In this document: positions 3,190 to 63,790 of the stretch, piece after piece
Position numbering within the stretch: position 1 is the stretch's first letter
How the letters are laid out: each line of letters opens with the position of its first letter
NCBI GenBank assembly: GCA_016866215.1
Contig: VGNE01000008.1
Coordinates: 1-64,000, forward strand
Direction: 5' to 3'
Source: Chloroflexota bacterium
Lineage (GTDB): Bacteria; Chloroflexota; Anaerolineae; Anaerolineales; Villigracilaceae
DNA: 64,000 nt
Made by a program: the position numbers and the translations under genes
The notes under the pieces: generated by a model
The model's database searches: none
Seen by the model: the letters and a program-made list of their open reading frames with translations, nothing else
Told to the model about the DNA's origin: nothing

Positions 3190-3281
3190 ATGTCATTGCG
3201 AGGAGGACTTTTGTCCGACGAAGCAATCTCCCTCAACGTTTTGGGGATTGCTTCGGGCAAAGAACGCCCTACTAATGACAC
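3190..3281. repeat. Palindromic repeat family A, copy 1 (intergenic)
   Basis: The element opens with TGTCATTGCGAGG and closes with a degenerate form of the reverse complement (AATGACAC). An inner inverted pair, GAAGCAATCTCC and GGATTGCTTCGG, surrounds the centre. The same layout recurs at 18119-18227, 25245-25342, 37866-37961 and 60898-61026. This copy begins at the stop codon of the STAS-like gene. Confidence 0.85.
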
Positions 3282-18118: not shown

Positions 18119-18227
18119 ATGTCATTGCGAGGGCGCTTTTGTTCCGCATGTTTTCGCGGCCCGAAGCAATCCCCAACACGACGAAGAGATTGCTTTGTCG
18201 GGAAGTGCGCCCTCCTCGCAATGACAT
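18119..18227. repeat. Palindromic repeat family A, copy 2 (intergenic)
   Basis: The element is bounded by ATGTCATTGCGAGGGCGC and its inverse GCGCCCTCCTCGCAATGACA, with inner arms CCGAAGCAATCC and AGATTGCTTTGTCGG. It lies upstream of the polysaccharide operon and downstream of the uracil-DNA glycosylase gene, so it could also form a long transcript hairpin there. Confidence 0.9.
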
Positions 18228-25244: not shown

Positions 25245-25342
25245 CGTCATTGCGAGGGCGATATTCTTTCGCCCGAAGCAATCTCCAGCACTAGACGGAG
25301 ATTGCTTTGCCGCCAAGAACAAGTGCGCGGCTCGCAATGACG
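25245..25342. repeat. Palindromic repeat family A, copy 3 (intergenic)
   Basis: Ends are CGTCATTGCGAGGGCG and GGCTCGCAATGACG, with inner arms CCCGAAGCAATCTCC and GGAGATTGCTTTGCC. It separates the aminotransferase start from the stop codon of the FAH-family gene and extends the apparent 5' coding frame of the aminotransferase. Confidence 0.9.
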
Positions 25343-36557: not shown

Positions 36558-37433
36558 ATGCACCTCAAAGGAATATACGCCCCTATCGTCACCCCCTTCA
36601 ACGCAGACGAAAGCATCAACTACCCCGTCCTCGAACAACTGATCGAATACCTGATCGCCAACAAGATCGCAGGACTTGTCCCAGGCGGCACGACGGGAGA
36701 AGTCTACGCCTTCACCGAAGCCGAGCGTTTGGATATTTTCAAATTCGTCAAAGAGAAAGTGGACGGGCGGGTCACGCTCATTGCAGGCACGAACTCTGGC
36801 GCCACGCGCGACGTTGTCCGCTACTCGCAGATCGCCGAGGGCATGGGCTACGACGCGCTCATGGTCGCCGTCCCACCGTATTCGCGTCCGGACCAGCGCG
36901 AACTGCTCGCGCATTACGAAGCCGTCGCCAAAGCCGTCAAAATTCCCATCGTCCTTTACAACTTCCCCTGGCGCGCGGGCACCGAAGTCAGCTACGAAGT
37001 GATGGACGGTCTGGCAAAATACGATCACATCATCGGCATCAAGGAAGCCAGCGGCGACATGTCCCGCGTTTACGAGTTCCGCCTGCGTTACGGCGACCGC
37101 TATCAAATGATCTGCGGCTCCGACGATCAGGCGCTCGACTACTTCCTGTGGGGCACCACTTCATGGATCGGTGGCGCCGCCTCCTGTGCGCCCCTCCAGC
37201 ACCATAAAGTTCTTGAAGCCGCGCTCAACAACGACTTCGTCACCGCCCGCAAGCACATGGATAAACTCCTCCCGCTCCTCCGCAACATGGAAAGCGGCAG
37301 CTACACCCAAAAGGTCAAAGTGGGGTGTGAACTGCTTGGCATCCCAGTTGGCAATCCGCGCATGCCGTTGCTGCCCCTCGCCGCTGAAGACCGCGTGGAG
37401 TTTGAGAAAATTTTTAAAAATGCGATTGCGTAG
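36558..37433 (+). CDS. DapA-family lyase, probable hydroxyproline-pathway deaminase
   Basis: The 291-residue TIM-barrel enzyme has GIYAPIVTPFN, GGTTGEVYAFTEAE, the catalytic tyrosine in YNFPWRAG and the Schiff-base lysine in IIGIKEASGD. DapA-family proteins next to hydroxyproline epimerase and D-hydroxyproline dehydrogenase usually act as delta-1-pyrroline-4-hydroxy-2-carboxylate deaminase. That is the assignment I prefer here over dihydrodipicolinate synthase. It is the first gene of a three-gene plus-strand operon. Confidence 0.8.
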   Translation: MHLKGIYAPIVTPFNADESINYPVLEQLIEYLIANKIAGLVPGGTTGEVYAFTEAERLDIFKFVKEKVDGRVTLIAGTNSGATRDVVRYSQIAEGMGYDALMVAVPPYSRPDQRELLAHYEAVAKAVKIPIVLYNFPWRAGTEVSYEVMDGLAKYDHIIGIKEASGDMSRVYEFRLRYGDRYQMICGSDDQALDYFLWGTTSWIGGAASCAPLQHHKVLEAALNNDFVTARKHMDKLLPLLRNMESGSYTQKVKVGCELLGIPVGNPRMPLLPLAAEDRVEFEKIFKNAIA

Positions 37434-37477: not shown

Positions 37478-38563
37478 ATGGATATTGATATGAAACGAAT
37501 CCCCTTCCTGGACTCACACACCGGCGGCGAACCCACCCGCCTCATCGAAACGCCTCCTTTCGACCTCGGAACTGGTTCTGTTGCTGACAAATTATCCCGC
37601 CTGAAAAAAGACCACGACGACTTCCGCACCACCGTCCTCAACGAACCCCGCGGATCAGATGTCCTTGTCGGCGCATTGCTCGTCGAACCTGCGGACCCAA
37701 CCTGCCAATTCGGAGTCATCTACTTCAACAACGTCGGCTACCTCGGCATGTGCGGACATGGCACCATCGGTCTTATCGCATCCCTTGCCTATCGCGGACG
37801 CGTGACTGAGGGAACTGTTCGGGTGGAGACTCCTGTTGGGGTTGTTGAAGCAACTCTGCATGCCCCGTCATTGCGAGGAGGGCGACAGCCCAACGAAGCA
37901 ATCTCGCGCAACGTCGAGGAGATTGCTTCGGGCAAAGAACAAGAGCGCCCTCGCAATGACGATAATTATCCAAATAAAGTCTCGGTCAAAAATATCCCCG
38001 CCTATCGTCATCTGACTCATGTCCCTGTCATAGTGAATGGCAAAACAATTCATGGCGACGTGGCGTGGGGCGGCAACTGGTTTTTCCTTGTCCACGACCA
38101 CGGCTTGGATGTGTCCATGCAAAACCTCGAAGCGCTGACCGATTTCTCGTGGCGCGTGCGCGAGCAATTGACCGCGAACGGAATCACAGGCGCGAACGGC
38201 GCGGAGATCGACCACATCGAGTTGTTTGCATCCACTACTTCGGCTTCCCCTTCGGGGACGATGTCGCTCAGTACAGGTCCCGACGCCGATAGTAAAAGTT
38301 TTGTCCTCTGCCCTGGCAAAGCCTATGACCGTTCTCCATGCGGCACGGGCACCAGCGCAAAACTGGCTTGTTTATACGCCGATGGAAAACTGCAAGTGGG
38401 TCAATCGTGGAAACAGCAAAGCATCGTCGGCAGTATCTTTGAAGGTAGCGTGCAGTTGGATGGTGAAGATATTATTCCCACGATTACAGGCGAAGCATGG
38501 GTAATGGCAGAAGGTGTGATTCTGGTGGATGAGCGCGATCCGTTTGGGAGAGGAATAAAATGA
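37478..38563 (+). CDS. 4-hydroxyproline epimerase (proline racemase family) with an in-frame repeat insertion
   Basis: The 361-residue enzyme keeps both catalytic cysteines: MCGHGTIG (C92) and SPCGTGTSA (C288), and the N-terminal IPFLDSHTGGEPTRLI. It interconverts trans-4-hydroxy-L-proline and cis-4-hydroxy-D-proline. Residues about 130-162 are extra compared with the family: the DNA at 37866-37961 is a complete 96-base copy of repeat family A, which adds 32 residues (PSLRGGRQPNEAIS and on) between ATLH and NKVSVKNIPAY. The frame is intact and both halves look normal. Confidence 0.88.
   Translation: MDIDMKRIPFLDSHTGGEPTRLIETPPFDLGTGSVADKLSRLKKDHDDFRTTVLNEPRGSDVLVGALLVEPADPTCQFGVIYFNNVGYLGMCGHGTIGLIASLAYRGRVTEGTVRVETPVGVVEATLHAPSLRGGRQPNEAISRNVEEIASGKEQERPRNDDNYPNKVSVKNIPAYRHLTHVPVIVNGKTIHGDVAWGGNWFFLVHDHGLDVSMQNLEALTDFSWRVREQLTANGITGANGAEIDHIELFASTTSASPSGTMSLSTGPDADSKSFVLCPGKAYDRSPCGTGTSAKLACLYADGKLQVGQSWKQQSIVGSIFEGSVQLDGEDIIPTITGEAWVMAEGVILVDERDPFGRGIK
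37866..37961. repeat. Palindromic repeat family A, copy 4 (in-frame inside the epimerase gene)
   Basis: Ends CGTCATTGCGAGGAGGGC and GCCCTCGCAATGACG are inverse of each other; inner arms CGAAGCAATCTCG and GAGATTGCTTCGG. The length is 96 bases, exactly 32 codons. It is read as the insertion SLRGGRQPNEAIS...RPRNDD in the hydroxyproline epimerase. Confidence 0.92.
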
Positions 38564-38634
38564 ATTTCCAACTCCGCTGGTTGAGCGCAAGCAGTCGAAA
38601 CCAGCAATGACAAGTAAACCTGAAATTCAAAGGT

Positions 38635-38683
38635 GTGGTCTCGATACGTCCCACGAAAAACACGCGGGACTACTCGACCACCA
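38635..38683. repeat. Palindromic repeat family B, copy 3 (upstream of a dehydrogenase gene)
   Basis: GTGGTCTCGATACGTCC and its inverse GGACTACTCGACCACC flank a short loop. It lies 20-70 bases before the start codon of the dehydrogenase gene and makes the apparent reading frame longer at its 5' end. Confidence 0.85.
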
Positions 38684-38704
38684 TATGTAATGGGAGTGTA
38701 TGAA

Positions 38705-39955
38705 GTGACCACAAAATCAGATGTCCTCATCATCGGCGGCGGACCCATTGGATTAAGTTGCGCCTATTACCTCCTGAAATCGGGACGCAAAGTAACCATC
38801 CTCGACGGAAAAGAAATCGGCAAGGGCAGCGGCTCGGGCAACGCGGGGCATATCGTGCCGAGTCACATCATTCCTTTGGCAGCGCCCGGGGTGGTGACCG
38901 CTGCTCTCAAGTGGATGTTAAGCCCAGCACACAGTCCCTTTGGAATGAAAATTAGCCTCGACCCAAAATATATTTCATGGCTGTTGCAATTCGTAATGGC
39001 GTGCACTGAAGCGAACGTCCAGCGCGCGCTGGAGCCGATGAAGAGTCTCGGTCAATTGAGCGCGGATAATTTTGCGAAAATCATTGCCGAAGAAAAATTC
39101 GAATGTCATTATCGGCAGACCGGTTTCCTGAATTTATATAAAAATCAAAACGCCTTCGACGAAGGTCGCCATGAAGCGAAGTTCATGCAAAAACACGGCA
39201 TCCCTGTGGAGGTGTACGACAAATCCAGAGTGGGTGAGGTTGAGCCTGCTGTACGGGATGATGTCCTCGGCGGTGTGCATTTCACGGGCGATGCGCATCT
39301 CAACCCCGCCCTCTTCCTTCAATTGCTGGGCGAACGCCTCCGCGCGATGGGCGCCGAGGTGTTCGAGTACACGCCCGTCACGCAGTTTGAATCAGCGGAG
39401 GGGAAAATCAGGGTTGTAAGAACAAGCGTCGGTGAGTTTGAAGCGCAGCAGGTCATCCTAGCCGCGGGTGCGTGGTCTCCCATCGTAGCGCGTGATCTGC
39501 GGTTGGACATACCCGTCCAGCCCGCGCGCGGATACAGCCTCACCGCATCTGCCATCCAGCACATGCCGCGCCAGGCGCTCATCCTTGGGGATCGCCGCGT
39601 GGCGGTCTCGCCGTTTGGAGATCTTCTGCGGGTCACGGGTCGCCTCGAAGTGGGGGAATACAGCACCACACCCAACCCACGCTGGATTCAACGGCTGGAA
39701 AATTTTGCCCGCGAATATATTAATTTGGATGAAAAACTGGATATCAAAGAAACCTGGGCTGGATTGCGCCCCGTCACGCCCGACGGAATACCGATCATTG
39801 GATACTCACCAAACCACACCAATTTGATCCTTGCCACAGGTCACGCCATGCTGGGTCTTTCGCTCGGACCAGGAACTGGACAGGTTGTGGCGGAGCTGAT
39901 CAATGGGCGCGAGACGGCGTTTGATTTAAATTCGCTGCGGGTGGAGAGGTTTTGA
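38705..39955 (+). CDS. D-hydroxyproline dehydrogenase (FAD, DadA-like)
   Basis: I place the start at the GTG at 38705, which has GGGAG eight bases upstream; the codons before it run into a family B palindrome. The protein has DVLIIGGGPIGLSCAYYL (FAD), GSGSGNAGHIVPSHI, and ends with GLRPVTPDGIPIIGYSP and ATGHAMLGLSLGPGTGQ, typical of DadA-type amine oxidases. It oxidises cis-4-hydroxy-D-proline to the pyrroline used by the DapA-family enzyme. No dedicated semialdehyde dehydrogenase is visible, so that step must be encoded elsewhere. Confidence 0.83.
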   Translation: MTTKSDVLIIGGGPIGLSCAYYLLKSGRKVTILDGKEIGKGSGSGNAGHIVPSHIIPLAAPGVVTAALKWMLSPAHSPFGMKISLDPKYISWLLQFVMACTEANVQRALEPMKSLGQLSADNFAKIIAEEKFECHYRQTGFLNLYKNQNAFDEGRHEAKFMQKHGIPVEVYDKSRVGEVEPAVRDDVLGGVHFTGDAHLNPALFLQLLGERLRAMGAEVFEYTPVTQFESAEGKIRVVRTSVGEFEAQQVILAAGAWSPIVARDLRLDIPVQPARGYSLTASAIQHMPRQALILGDRRVAVSPFGDLLRVTGRLEVGEYSTTPNPRWIQRLENFAREYINLDEKLDIKETWAGLRPVTPDGIPIIGYSPNHTNLILATGHAMLGLSLGPGTGQVVAELINGRETAFDLNSLRVERF

Positions 39956-40789: not shown

Positions 40790-40970
40790 ATGCCTATCAC
40801 CACCCCTCACCCTGTCCTCTCCCTTGGGAGAGGGGCAACCCGTCCCGCCGATTAATCGTCACAATCGGGGTGAGGTCGCACTGATCGCGAAGCATACCCG
40901 AGCAGAGCGAGTGGTAGATGCCCGAAGGACAGAGGCCTCATGGACACTCACGCCAGAAACGGTCATTTAC
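40790..40970. repeat. Inter-module repeat block
   Basis: Contains CCTCACCCTGTCCTCTCCCTTGGGAGAGG (a short palindrome), CACTGATCGCGAAGCATACCCGAGC and CGAGTGGTAGATGCCCGAAGGACAGAGG. The same words recur at 41745-41840 and 43620-43690. It sits between two convergent or tandem toxin-antitoxin modules. Confidence 0.7.
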
Positions 40971-59822: not shown

Positions 59823-60038
59823 TCAAAAATTCCTTCTTGAAAATCGGTCAAATCCAGTTATAATCAACTTGCCAGCGGACAAAAATCGGCTCCATGCCGT
59901 GAGATTACGAGACTACGGTCTACATAATCCTATATTCGCTGGTCAAAAGCGTTTCGATCGCTCATCCTGTCTCGCGAAAAGTAGCCGTATGGCTGCCTGC
60001 CCACCCTTCGAGGGTATGGGATAGCGAGGCGGGTTATT
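59823..60038. other. Gap between Mod and DUF3800 genes with a plus-strand promoter-like pair
   Basis: The 216-base gap holds TTGAAA (59837-59842) and TATAAT (59859-59864) spaced by 16 bases and pointing right, where no gene follows. A palindromic block CTCGCGAAAAGTAGCCG...CCACCCTTCGAGGGTATGG is at 59970-60020. It could be a small antisense RNA promoter or chance. Confidence 0.35.
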
Positions 60039-60659
60039 TTAAGGGCGATACACTTCCAGCCGTTTGATCTTCTTTGCAATCTTATCAAAAGCCTCCGAGT
60101 CATGCTGGGTGTCCCTGCGCATGATGGCGCCCGCCGCAAGGTCTGCCGCTTGAATAAGCGACTCGCTGTGTGAACTGCGGACAACAACGCGCCTGAATAA
60201 ACGCGGCATGTGACGCTTGATCATGGCGCGGCGTAACTCTGTTCTCAAATCGGGCGTGGAGCCGAATTCATCAAGGATCAAGGTCGCGTTCTCCTGCAGT
60301 TCAGCGGGGATCATGCCAAGCAATTCGGTAATGAAATGCAGGTAAATTTCGAGGCTTCCCAAGGTCTCGAAAATTTTCGGCAACCTGGTTTTATCCACCG
60401 CAAGCGCCCAAACCTGAAAATCGGCTCGCGCCAACGCAGAAAATACTTCATTACGGATGACGCCGTCCGCCATTTTATGGAATTTGAATTCATGCGCTTC
60501 GTGCAGACCAAGCGACTGGCGCACTTCCGCCAGAGTTTGCCTGAGCGGGTCGGGAAATTGGGTGGATATAAAGACAGGCACAAAATAACGCGAAGCGCCT
60601 TTCTCAAAATTCAAACTGACGTCGCCCGCTTCATCGCCTGCAAAGATGAACGTGATCAT
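60039..60659 (-). CDS. DUF3800 protein encoded between Mod and Res
   Basis: The ATG at 60659 overlaps the Res stop (ATGA). The 206-residue protein has FIFAGDEAGDVSLNFEKGASRYF and LILDEFGSTPDLRTELRRAM, then SHSESLIQAADLAAGAIMRRD, matching the DUF3800 RNase-H-like pattern D-E-x-G near the start and Q-x-A-D-x-x-A-G near the end. DUF3800 proteins are common in mobile and defence DNA, but their activity is not well established. Here it is part of the type III operon, between Res and Mod. Confidence 0.85.
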   Translation of the reverse strand: MITFIFAGDEAGDVSLNFEKGASRYFVPVFISTQFPDPLRQTLAEVRQSLGLHEAHEFKFHKMADGVIRNEVFSALARADFQVWALAVDKTRLPKIFETLGSLEIYLHFITELLGMIPAELQENATLILDEFGSTPDLRTELRRAMIKRHMPRLFRRVVVRSSHSESLIQAADLAAGAIMRRDTQHDSEAFDKIAKKIKRLEVYRP

Positions 60660-63600
60660 GCGTTTTTTTCTTCCTGATGATCGAACAGCGTTCCCAACAT
60701 GAGATTCTCGAACCCGCGCTCCATCCCCGCGCGGATCAGGTTCTGCGTTTCGTGGATGTCTTGGATTTCCAACATCGCCCACGTGCCATACTTTCCGCTG
60801 TTATTCACGGCGGGAATCCACATCTCGCGGGCGGTTTTTACCTTCAAGCCCTTCTTATCGTCCTTCTTGCCTGTGACTTCGATCAACAAGTTCAATACGT
60901 CATTGCGAGCCGCCGTTGGTCGAGTAGGCGTGTTCGTCGCCGTATCGAGACCAGGCGGCGAAGCAATCTCCTCCTGCCGCGCGGGGATTGCTTCGTCGCT
61001 CACTCCGTTCGCTCCTCGCAATGACGACATGTCGAGGACAACAATAAAATCAGGCAAATATTGCCTGCTCACGCCTTGATACTCATACGGAATCGAAAAG
61101 CCAAGATTTTGGTTCTTCACATACGCCAACACTTCGGGCATTTGCTCCAATCGCTTGGCGACGCCCTGCTCCCATTCGGCGGTATCCGCCACCACGTAAT
61201 TGATGTGGCTCTTGGTCGTCTCGCGCACTTCCTTTGTGGTCAGGAAATCCACATAGCGCGTCGAGCCGAGCGTGTCATACGGGACGAAGATGGGCAGCAG
61301 GCGTTTCTCTTCTTGATGTTCGATATTTTCCTTGACGATTCCCTGCTGGATTTTGGTCAACGCGCCAGAGAAATATTCTCCAACGGAGAGATAACCAACC
61401 ACCATGCGGTCTTTCAAACGCACATGATTTCGCACATACTCCCCGACGATCTTCTGCAACTGCGGGAACAGCCAATATTTTTCAACGCCGTCGCCATCGG
61501 TGTAATAACGCTTGAGCAAGGCTTGTGTCAGTCGCATCACCACTTCGCCTTCGCGCCGTTCTTTGATCTTCTCCAACGTCTCTTTGGTCTCTTCGCCGAT
61601 CAAGCCTTCGGAAATCACTTCGGTTGGTTCGTTTTCGATGACTGTGCGCGATTCTTGGGTAAATTTCGCGGCAAGTTGCCGTTCATCCAATTCGTACCGA
61701 TAGCCTTCCAACCGCGGGAAGGTGATTTCAAATTGCTCACGTTCCTCAATGGCATGAACACGGTGAACGACCTTTGGCGTCTGCGCGCTTGTTGTGCCTT
61801 CGGCTTTCAGGAAGTTGAACGGAACGCCATACACCTCAGCATATTCTGGCGTAAATTTTTCGACACCATCGGCATCCACGACTGGGGAATAATCCACCCG
61901 CCTCAATGCCCGACCAACCACCTGCTCACAAAGCAACTGGGTTGTAAAAGCCCTGACACCCAAAATGTGAGTGACAGTGTTTACATCCCAGCCTTCGGTC
62001 AACATCGAAACCGAAACCACACATTTTATATTTTCGCCCAACCTGCCAGGCTTACCCACCGTGTTCATTACTTCGCGTAAAAGTTCTTCATCCGTTGGTT
62101 CATCCCTGCCAGGAAATCGTCTGCGATATTCCTTGTGAAAGTCTGCAATTTCAACGGCAAATACCTTTTTGAAGGCTGGGTCAATCTGCTCGCCGCTTTC
62201 CAATTGCGCGCTGTCTATCAATAACGTGTTGGGGCGGTCGTAGAAATTCACGCCATCTTCGTTGCGGGGGATGTCGAGATTCCCTTTTTCAATGCGAATT
62301 TGCCCTCTGGGGCTGGCTGTTTCGCGCTCATAGCCTGCAATCCAGCGATATACCATTTCGGAAACGGTTGTGTTGTTGCACACCACGATCATCACAGGTG
62401 GCATCACGGCTGGATTGTCTCGCTTCTGCTTTTCGTATTCCCGAAAATATTTTTCGTAATTGCCATACAGCGAATGCAACGCCTCTTCCAATTTCGTTGG
62501 CAGGATGATGGTCGAAAGATCGTAATCACCTGTTTTCTTGCCTTTCTTGGGCAAATCTCCACTGACATATTCCCACAAATTGCGAAACTCTGGAACATCG
62601 CCATAAACGATGGTGTCTGAAGCAACAGGCAGTCGCGGAATTTTCACAATGCCGCATTCGAGCGCATCGAGAAGTGAGAAGTCATACACTGTCCATTGAA
62701 ACAAAGTTCCTTCGGGATAGCCTGACCCGCGCAGGAAATACGGTGTGGCAGAAAGGTCAATGATGGCGTTGATGTTCTTCTTTTGCGAGAGGGCTTCCAG
62801 TCCGCTAATCCACACTCGCGCCGCCTTGTTGTTATCGTCGGCTTCTTTGCGTTCATCTATGCTCATGTTTTCGGCGCTTGGTTTCTCGCGATAACAGTGA
62901 TGGGCTTCATCATTGATGACAAGCACGCGCGGCTTATTGAGCAGGCTCTTAAAAGCGCGGTTAATCATTGCGTTGGGCGATTCTTTTACTGCTTCGTCTT
63001 GGATCAAGCCTGTGGCTTTGAGCGTGCCTCCCATTTCAAGGCGCGGGTTTTCACGCAGCGCCAATTGATGGAAGTTCGTAATGAATACAACGGCTTGATG
63101 GAGCAATTCGAAATCCTGACGAGACACTATATCGCGCGCCAGATAGTAGTTTCTCGGATTCTCTGGCTTGAGTACATCCAGACGGTCTTTGATAGTTATG
63201 CCTGGCGTGATTATGGCGAATGCGTCCGTAAATCTTGTATCTTGCGGGTAACGAACCTTGTTTAAGGTGTGATAGGCAATAATCATTGCCATGACCACTG
63301 TTTTTCCTGAACCTGTAGCCATCTTGAATGCCAGTCGGTACAAACCAGGATTGGCTTCGGCATTGGATTTCCGCAATTCGTTGGGAATCCATGTTTCGCC
63401 AGCTTTTTCCGCAACTTCAGTAATAAACATCAGGGTTTCCAATGCTTCGATCTGGCAAAAGAAGAGTTTATTTTCTCGGTTTTCATCTCTCCAGTAATAC
63501 AACAAATCTCGCGATGTCCTTGTAATTCCTGAATAGCCACTCTCTCGCCATTCTTTTATCTTTGCCCGAATCTTGTTGATAAATTCATTTTCGGTCTGAA

Positions 63601-63790
63601 GTTCACTGCCATACGCGCCCTCGGCTATATCCAATTCAAGTTGTCTTTCTTTGAGCCGTGCTCGTGGAACGGGAATGTAGAAACTGCTTGGACGACGAAC
63701 TTCCAGAATTTCTTCTGAAATCCCGCGCTCGTCCGCCTTGAAGTGTCGAATAGGTTCAAAATACGGGGAATTGATAATCGGGTTATTCAT
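60656..63790 (-). CDS. Type III restriction enzyme Res subunit, with a nested repeat insertion
   Basis: The 1044-residue protein has Walker A MATGSGKTVVMA (residues 158-164), the DEAH box in VINDEAHHCYR (294-297) and the helicase C-terminal part with VSVSMLTEGWDVNTVTHILGVRAF and QVVGRALRR. The endonuclease domain includes YLPDFIVVLD and NLLIEVTGKKDDKKG, a PD-(D/E)xK-type motif. Between them residues about 922-965 come from repeat family A with family B nested in it (60898-61026, 129 bases, 43 codons). The insertion divides the nuclease domain between the aspartate and the E-x-K residues but the frame is open. It is the first gene of the operon. Confidence 0.9.
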   Translation of the reverse strand: MNNPIINSPYFEPIRHFKADERGISEEILEVRRPSSFYIPVPRARLKERQLELDIAEGAYGSELQTENEFINKIRAKIKEWRESGYSGITRTSRDLLYYWRDENRENKLFFCQIEALETLMFITEVAEKAGETWIPNELRKSNAEANPGLYRLAFKMATGSGKTVVMAMIIAYHTLNKVRYPQDTRFTDAFAIITPGITIKDRLDVLKPENPRNYYLARDIVSRQDFELLHQAVVFITNFHQLALRENPRLEMGGTLKATGLIQDEAVKESPNAMINRAFKSLLNKPRVLVINDEAHHCYREKPSAENMSIDERKEADDNNKAARVWISGLEALSQKKNINAIIDLSATPYFLRGSGYPEGTLFQWTVYDFSLLDALECGIVKIPRLPVASDTIVYGDVPEFRNLWEYVSGDLPKKGKKTGDYDLSTIILPTKLEEALHSLYGNYEKYFREYEKQKRDNPAVMPPVMIVVCNNTTVSEMVYRWIAGYERETASPRGQIRIEKGNLDIPRNEDGVNFYDRPNTLLIDSAQLESGEQIDPAFKKVFAVEIADFHKEYRRRFPGRDEPTDEELLREVMNTVGKPGRLGENIKCVVSVSMLTEGWDVNTVTHILGVRAFTTQLLCEQVVGRALRRVDYSPVVDADGVEKFTPEYAEVYGVPFNFLKAEGTTSAQTPKVVHRVHAIEEREQFEITFPRLEGYRYELDERQLAAKFTQESRTVIENEPTEVISEGLIGEETKETLEKIKERREGEVVMRLTQALLKRYYTDGDGVEKYWLFPQLQKIVGEYVRNHVRLKDRMVVGYLSVGEYFSGALTKIQQGIVKENIEHQEEKRLLPIFVPYDTLGSTRYVDFLTTKEVRETTKSHINYVVADTAEWEQGVAKRLEQMPEVLAYVKNQNLGFSIPYEYQGVSRQYLPDFIVVLDMSSLRGANGVSDEAIPARQEEIASPPGLDTATNTPTRPTAARNDVLNLLIEVTGKKDDKKGLKVKTAREMWIPAVNNSGKYGTWAMLEIQDIHETQNLIRAGMERGFENLMLGTLFDHQEEKNA
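60898..61026. repeat. Palindromic repeat family A with family B nested, copy 5, inside the Res gene
   Basis: Ends ACGTCATTGCGAG and CTCGCAATGACG are family A. Inside, at 60914-60953, CGTTGGTCGAGTAGGC and CGTATCGAGACCAGG are a complete family B unit, so B entered A. The length, 129 bases, is a multiple of three, and B is read as GLDTATNTPTRPT, in the same frame as in the polysaccharide membrane protein. Confidence 0.9.

Follow-up and report, generated by a model that had tools for sequence, protein, structure and literature searches.

A palindromic insert in a proline-racemase-family gene

The window (the whole stretch of DNA analysed, 64,000 nt) carries at 37478–38563 (+) an open frame of 361 aa in the proline racemase family, most likely a 4-hydroxyproline epimerase by its profile and structure matches. 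The product scores 276 bits against Pfam Pro_racemase (cut-off 27). Its best NCBIfam matches are to 4-hydroxyproline epimerase, under the curated cut-offs (378 vs 442 and 362 vs 450 bits), perhaps because of the inserts described below; solved hydroxyproline epimerases are about 50% identical to it, and its predicted fold matches that of 4j9w with a TM-score of 0.95 (by target length) at 50% identity. C92 and C288, which we take to be the catalytic cysteines of this family, are invariant in 37 of 37 aligned sequences, in keeping with an earlier note on this DNA that had found both cysteines and the frame intact. That note had named a pseudogene as fatal to its reading; the flanks of the insert argue against one, with omega at 0.06–0.11 in nine pairs, indicating purifying selection. 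The neighbouring ORFs at 36558–37433 and 38633–39955 presumably encode, by the look of their sequences, a dihydrodipicolinate-synthase-like enzyme and an FAD-dependent amino-acid oxidase, and the epimerase may sit with them in a hydroxyproline-use cluster.

Within the gene, at 37866–37961 (+), lies a CGTC-tagged palindromic repeat dimer of 96 nt, read in the frame SLRG...PRND as about residues 130–162 of the epimerase ORF. In a fold computation it forms an extended hairpin with two pairs of arms: the outer left arm (37866–37878, +), consisting of the tag CGTC and ATTGCGAGG, pairs over 13 bp with the complementary outer right arm (37949–37961, +), and inside these lie an inner left arm CGAAGCAATCTC (37894–37905, +) and an inner right arm (37919–37930, +). 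Its dG is -52.7 kcal/mol (z -7.62), where 200 shuffles average -28.9 and none of them (0/200) is as stable; this bears out the 96-base palindrome with terminal and internal arms described earlier. Taken by itself, and at up to two mismatches, the 12-base end motif occurs 9 times in the window against 6.7 by chance, no excess, so the case for the element is made by its whole copies and its fold. Rfam at the gathering threshold has no match to the element and two matches elsewhere in the window. Also seen in the window is a match to DUF3800-IX RNA at 59965–60038 (+), scoring 58.9 bits against an Rfam gathering score of 36.8.

The element had been said to add exactly 32 codons. This holds for its own length but not for the net gain, which is 29 residues (35 vs 6), because the six-residue linker of insert-free orthologues has not been retained.

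The structural model, proposed earlier for residues 130–162, has a mean pLDDT of 87.4 and places the insert between strands 121–127 and 167–171, as a low-confidence stretch (blocks 131–160 at pLDDT 52–57, vs above 90 in the flanking strands) that includes a low-confidence helix at 138–149. Orthologue loop lengths reveal a second in-frame insert of 14 codons at about 38237–38278 (+), with the peptide TSASPSGTMSLSTG. In the 40 orthologues covering this loop, it has 6 residues in 38, 20 in the window epimerase, and 13 in one other (G093), whose insert is different and shorter. The model is again of low confidence here (pLDDT 67 and 56 for blocks 251–270), and both inserts fit flexible loops. Given these loop lengths, the second loop may be another insertion site. 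A 24-nt stretch of it recurs at three other places in the genome, in matches of just 23–24 nt, and a repeat motif tried for its origin was found at one place elsewhere in the window.

A dispersed family of CGTC-tagged dimers

The element is one of many. BLAST against its own genome (G000) gave 52 matches, and an exact dimer pattern occurs 39 times there and up to 137 times in one genome, with a reversed-pattern control at 0. At least one such dimer is carried by 56 of the 57 genus genomes; the counts are 10 of 16 for other genomes in the family and 16 of 48 for other genomes in the order. When the phylum was sampled evenly, matches turned up in 15 of 201 genomes. The earlier note had listed copies at 3190, 18119 and 25245, and these were recovered along with more across the genome. 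The first (3191–3280, +; right end approximate, the scripted match having run to 3341) is partly decayed in its right arm; the second and third (18120–18226 and 25245–25342, both +) fall in no long open frame. A further copy, unlisted earlier, lies in frame at 60898–61026 (-) within a BPTD_3080-family restriction endonuclease gene.

Forty copies were located, in the window and in 36 stretches around BLAST matches; at least four further places in the genome (on contigs 2, 5, and 9) lie outside this set. All 40 are head-to-head dimers, as the search pattern required. Among their 80 half-elements 41 start with CGTC and 33 with TGTC, under a pattern that tolerated two substitutions yet favoured the CGTC-type end; the consensus after the tag is ATTGCGAG, opening with A (0.85 of halves) and T (0.97), and 65 of the 80 contain a GCAA(T/C) arm. 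Judged on these features the element resembles a head-to-head dimer of CGTC-tagged REP-like units, with loops that look longer than the 4–5 nt of CGTC-REPs.

Target duplications are absent at 27 of the 40 copies, and the longest elsewhere is 4 nt. Linkage was checked for transposases of the Y1_Tnp type: no copy lies beside any of the seven Y1_Tnp stretches in the genome (two of them adjacent), and the end motif is absent within about 1.5 kb of these loci save for one mismatched 10-mer, at L033.

Eleven of the 40 located copies have a length that is a multiple of three, three of these within genes. Four of the 40 are internal to genes of recognised families, and all four are in frame, which supplies the count of frame-keeping copies that had been proposed as a check. 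Two other long frames run through copies (L165 and L166); neither has a Pfam family match.

Other repeats are also evident. Between 40800 and 56600 the window has many direct-repeat families, several with hairpin-like GGGGGAG/CTCCCCC cores, and in the longest ORF of locus L036 the peptide KLALSGAEGE resembles one more in-frame insert of repeat origin.

Occupants of the epimerase site

Searching relatives yielded 42 epimerase orthologues, of which 41 could be classed at the insert site. G016, with a frameshifted site, was left out of the counts and the tree; a broken fragment (G087) was not counted, and a partial gene (L016) was kept in the class counts and the tree but not in the Mantel test described below. 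The alignment (A1) holds 36 of 80 named loci.

The 41 orthologues share one site with mixed occupants: a CGTC dimer in 18 (site length 26–43 residues), a different hairpin repeat, here called GVR-type, in 13 (14–47 residues), something else in three (11–23 residues), and nothing in seven (6 residues). The GVR class is defined by a peptide pattern, and a DNA hairpin pattern also matched in 12 of its 13 members; the same type of pattern occurs in the window at 40805–40835 (-) and in 3 of the 36 fetched stretches of the genome, a tally with no chance control. All 18 CGTC inserts are read in one frame from nearly one left junction, and in two species (G026, L006; G076, L039) an extra short piece is nested in the CGTC insert with the frame kept. 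The linker KNEA(G/D)(E/K) recurs in five species that belong to three genera and are scattered on the tree. Of the 42 orthologues, 41 have an open gene; in the 42nd (G016, L021) the frame is broken at a GVR-type insert, in a genome 78% complete, by gene loss or assembly error. CGTC insert lengths in the epimerases are multiples of three because the genes are open, and so are not independent evidence.

The earlier note had read the insert as an in-frame palindrome of the Rickettsia type, in a loop. In 28 of 28 aligned more distant homologues the turn is just 2 residues, the search for empty sites that it had called for found seven among the 41, and the flanks are constrained, all of which supports that reading. 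It had also taken the insert as one insertion; that the sequence was inserted stands, but occupation appears recurrent and by different repeats, with mixed occupants at three more genes as described below.

Some mitochondrial genes contain bypassing elements, which are skipped in translation. A hairpin-forming insert within a conserved gene is what one would expect of such an element, but bypassing would not need the frame to stay open through the site, as it does in 41 of 42 orthologues, and we consider it very improbable here.

Other genes with in-frame copies

The four genes with in-frame copies in G000 are the epimerase, an alanine racemase (TIGR00492, above cut-off), a geranylgeranyl-reductase-like gene (best match to that family at 122 bits, below the cut-off of 158.8, with FAD-binding Pfam domains above theirs), and the BPTD_3080 restriction enzyme, a 1044-aa product encoded at 60659–63790 (-) in the window (NF046055, 1081 bits vs a cut-off of 800).

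For the alanine racemase, loci were taken from the best 30 of 56 genomes with matches, and for the geranylgeranyl-reductase-like gene from the best 30 of 37; since these are the best matches to an insert-bearing query, the tag shares that follow are biased upward. The tag is present at 16 of 27 alanine racemase sites that could be read by anchors (L192, L207, and L212 could not), 14 in the frame SLR and two, from sister species, in the frame VIA; the class without it includes partly decayed inserts. On the alanine racemase tree 7 changes suffice to explain the tag, where shuffles average 8.9 and 63 of 500 are as low, a result that counts against the recurrent insertion preferred below. In the geranylgeranyl-reductase-like gene it is present at 8 of 29 read sites (L229 was not read). 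BPTD_3080 is found in 4 of the 57 genomes, and its three readable sites (L248 was not read) hold a CGTC dimer in the window, a GVR-like repeat, by eye, in G011, and nothing in G012. Orthologues thus differ in what they hold at all four sites, the epimerase's included.

History of the inserts

A gene tree was built from the epimerase flanks only, with 12 of its 38 inner branches starred. The four site states require 19 changes on it, where shuffled states average 19.5 and 95 of 200 shuffles are as low; the starred branches imply no fewer than 7 changes for CGTC and no fewer than 7 for GVR. Well supported sister pairs with different states include G007/G066, G008/G069, and G076/G071. The histories of inserts and flanks do not match: insert and flank distances are uncorrelated in a Mantel test (r -0.09, n=17; 1427 of 2000 permutations reach or exceed it), and the median identity between orthologous inserts (0.69) is like that between the inserts and other copies in G000 (0.68 as found, 0.70 on the best strand). 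A weak vertical signal could be missed, the repeat copies being far diverged.

Individual comparisons point in several directions. The best non-self match of the G015 insert is another copy in the same genome (79% over 95 nt), ahead of the five other genomes included in that search, in which 40 of 82 G015 candidates were scored. The G000 insert is nearer to three orthologous inserts (0.83, 0.80, and 0.78) than to any other located copy in its own genome (0.76). The G018 and G030 inserts have one half only in common, and the G012 and G028 inserts are 95% identical between flanks that differ by about 18%. The last case implies that exchange between species also occurs, and together with the nearness of the G000 insert to orthologous ones it indicates that inheritance or exchange also plays a part.

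One explanation for these data would be a single CGTC insertion in an ancestor of the genus, after which copies diverged, were lost, or underwent ectopic gene conversion, with no repeated insertion. The single frame of all 18 epimerase inserts would follow naturally, as would the half-shared inserts of G018 and G030, which conversion would give, and the resemblance of the G000 insert to some of its orthologues over copies in its own genome. A single event does not readily account for a different hairpin repeat at the same site in 13 of 41 orthologues, for the scattered KNEA(G/D)(E/K) linker, for two reading frames of the element at one site in alanine racemase, or for three orthologues of one further gene (BPTD_3080) that are CGTC, GVR-like, and empty. 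As an account of the whole genus we regard it as unlikely; given the constant epimerase junction and frame, ancestral insertion with conversion may apply in part of the species.

As a second possibility, insert-bearing alleles might have spread between species by homologous recombination, so that the scatter over the tree would reflect allele exchange. The G012/G028 pair is the kind of case this predicts, but there the high identity ends within about 30 nt of flank, and for 12 of the 18 CGTC inserts the closest orthologous insert is at most 84% identical. We think this quite unlikely as the general explanation.

A third possibility is that the insert is useful to the enzyme or to its mRNA, say as a binding loop or a regulatory hairpin. 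The hairpin is stable, and 34 of the 41 orthologues hold more than the six-residue linker; on the other hand seven manage without, no site state is conserved on the tree, and within the three inserts compared dN/dS is about 0.6 to 2.6. These three pairs were picked as the closest ones (dN 0.09–0.17, dS 0.06–0.24, against a flank dS of 0.79–1.06), and their low dS may reflect similarity within the repeat family rather than age. A function of this kind seems improbable.

A probable recurrent landing site

The explanation we prefer, with a probability of roughly 0.7, is that selfish REP-like elements have again and again entered, or been exchanged at, a small number of tolerant loops, while selection maintained the frame. 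The epimerase insert would then be a selfish, non-autonomous palindromic repeat placed in the turn after residue 128 of the enzyme. That turn would be a recurrent landing site in the genus, with a CGTC dimer in some species, an unrelated hairpin repeat in others and an empty site in yet others; in two species a further piece would have nested in the CGTC insert. Resident inserts would be exchanged or replaced, in part presumably by gene conversion between copies. Once translated, the insert would form a flexible loop with little effect on the enzyme, and insertions that broke the frame or fell elsewhere would be purged by selection. Insertion itself might be the work of a trans-acting enzyme or of template switching where hairpins form; transposition was not observed, and the Y1_Tnp loci of the genome yielded no inserting enzyme.

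A small number of protein loops thus seem to receive mobile DNA repeatedly, and the cell to translate and tolerate it. They would provide a natural map of loops in which 11 to 47 residues can replace the 6 of relatives while the gene stays open.

It seems conceivable, if rather unlikely, that insertion is also directed to these loops, a single-strand-acting enzyme or template switching preferring some feature of the coding sites. The same handful of codons would then attract unrelated palindromes, and throughout the genus the loops of housekeeping enzymes would go on being reshaped.

Comparison with known repeat systems

A REPIN consists of two inverted REPs forming a small mobile unit. REPINs are described as mobilised by RAYT transposases (PMC3116915), and in this the present element differs, none of the Y1 transposase loci of its genome being flanked by copies. 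A RAYT-mobilised REPIN was ruled against on that ground.

In Chloroflexota, a 2025 RepRanger table gives REPs in three genomes, including Anaerolinea thermolimosa (PMC12306157); for these genomes, the portion of that source consulted has nothing on in-frame insertion or CGTC dimers. A text search of open-licence PMC papers with a ten-base motif gave no bacterial-repeat paper, by title, among the matches listed.

The closest likeness in make-up is to the CGTC-tagged REPs surveyed by Di Nocera, De Gregorio and Rocco in 2013 (PMC3733652), which are described as having a tag CGTC, TGTC, or CCTC, a stem of 8–9 bp starting with A, T, and a loop of 4–5 nt. Shared features are the CGTC, often TGTC, at the outer ends, the AT-first arm, and a dispersed distribution with no linked transposase (here, of the Y1_Tnp type) and some copies within genes. 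Head-to-head dimers predominate among CGTC REPs, and the copies located here have that form, for which the search asked; the inner loops of the present element look longer and vary. In the parts of the survey at hand, CGTC repeats are listed from Proteobacteria, Chlorobi, Bacteroidetes, Spirochaetes, and Thermotogae, and Chloroflexi appear with GTAG repeats only. Different REPs at about one site of Xanthomonas recB genes are reported there; unrelated repeat families at one orthologous site, as found here, were not seen in those parts.

The same survey places Rickettsia RPE-4 and RPE-6 in the CGTC REP superfamily, and any kinship between these and the present element would run through that superfamily (PMC3733652). 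RPE-4, RPE-6, and RPE-7 are in-frame palindromes of 68–192 bp in conserved genes, described in the 2013 R. japonica genome paper (PMC3767692) as occupying solvent-exposed places in their proteins. In-frame insertion in unrelated conserved genes, the mark of an RPE, is found here for 4 of the 40 located copies, and RPEs, like the present inserts, occupy the same loci in orthologues with types differing per species (PMC3767692). The R. japonica authors weighed hot spots against a common origin and, in the sections available to us, leaned to the latter while keeping hot spots possible, so that the choice between hot spots and one old insertion was left open (PMC3767692). An unlike repeat family and empty sites at one epimerase position favour hot spots here, against the Rickettsia leaning. 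In the present genus dozens of species are sequenced, some sites are empty and one codon position takes two unlike repeats, which makes the question testable.
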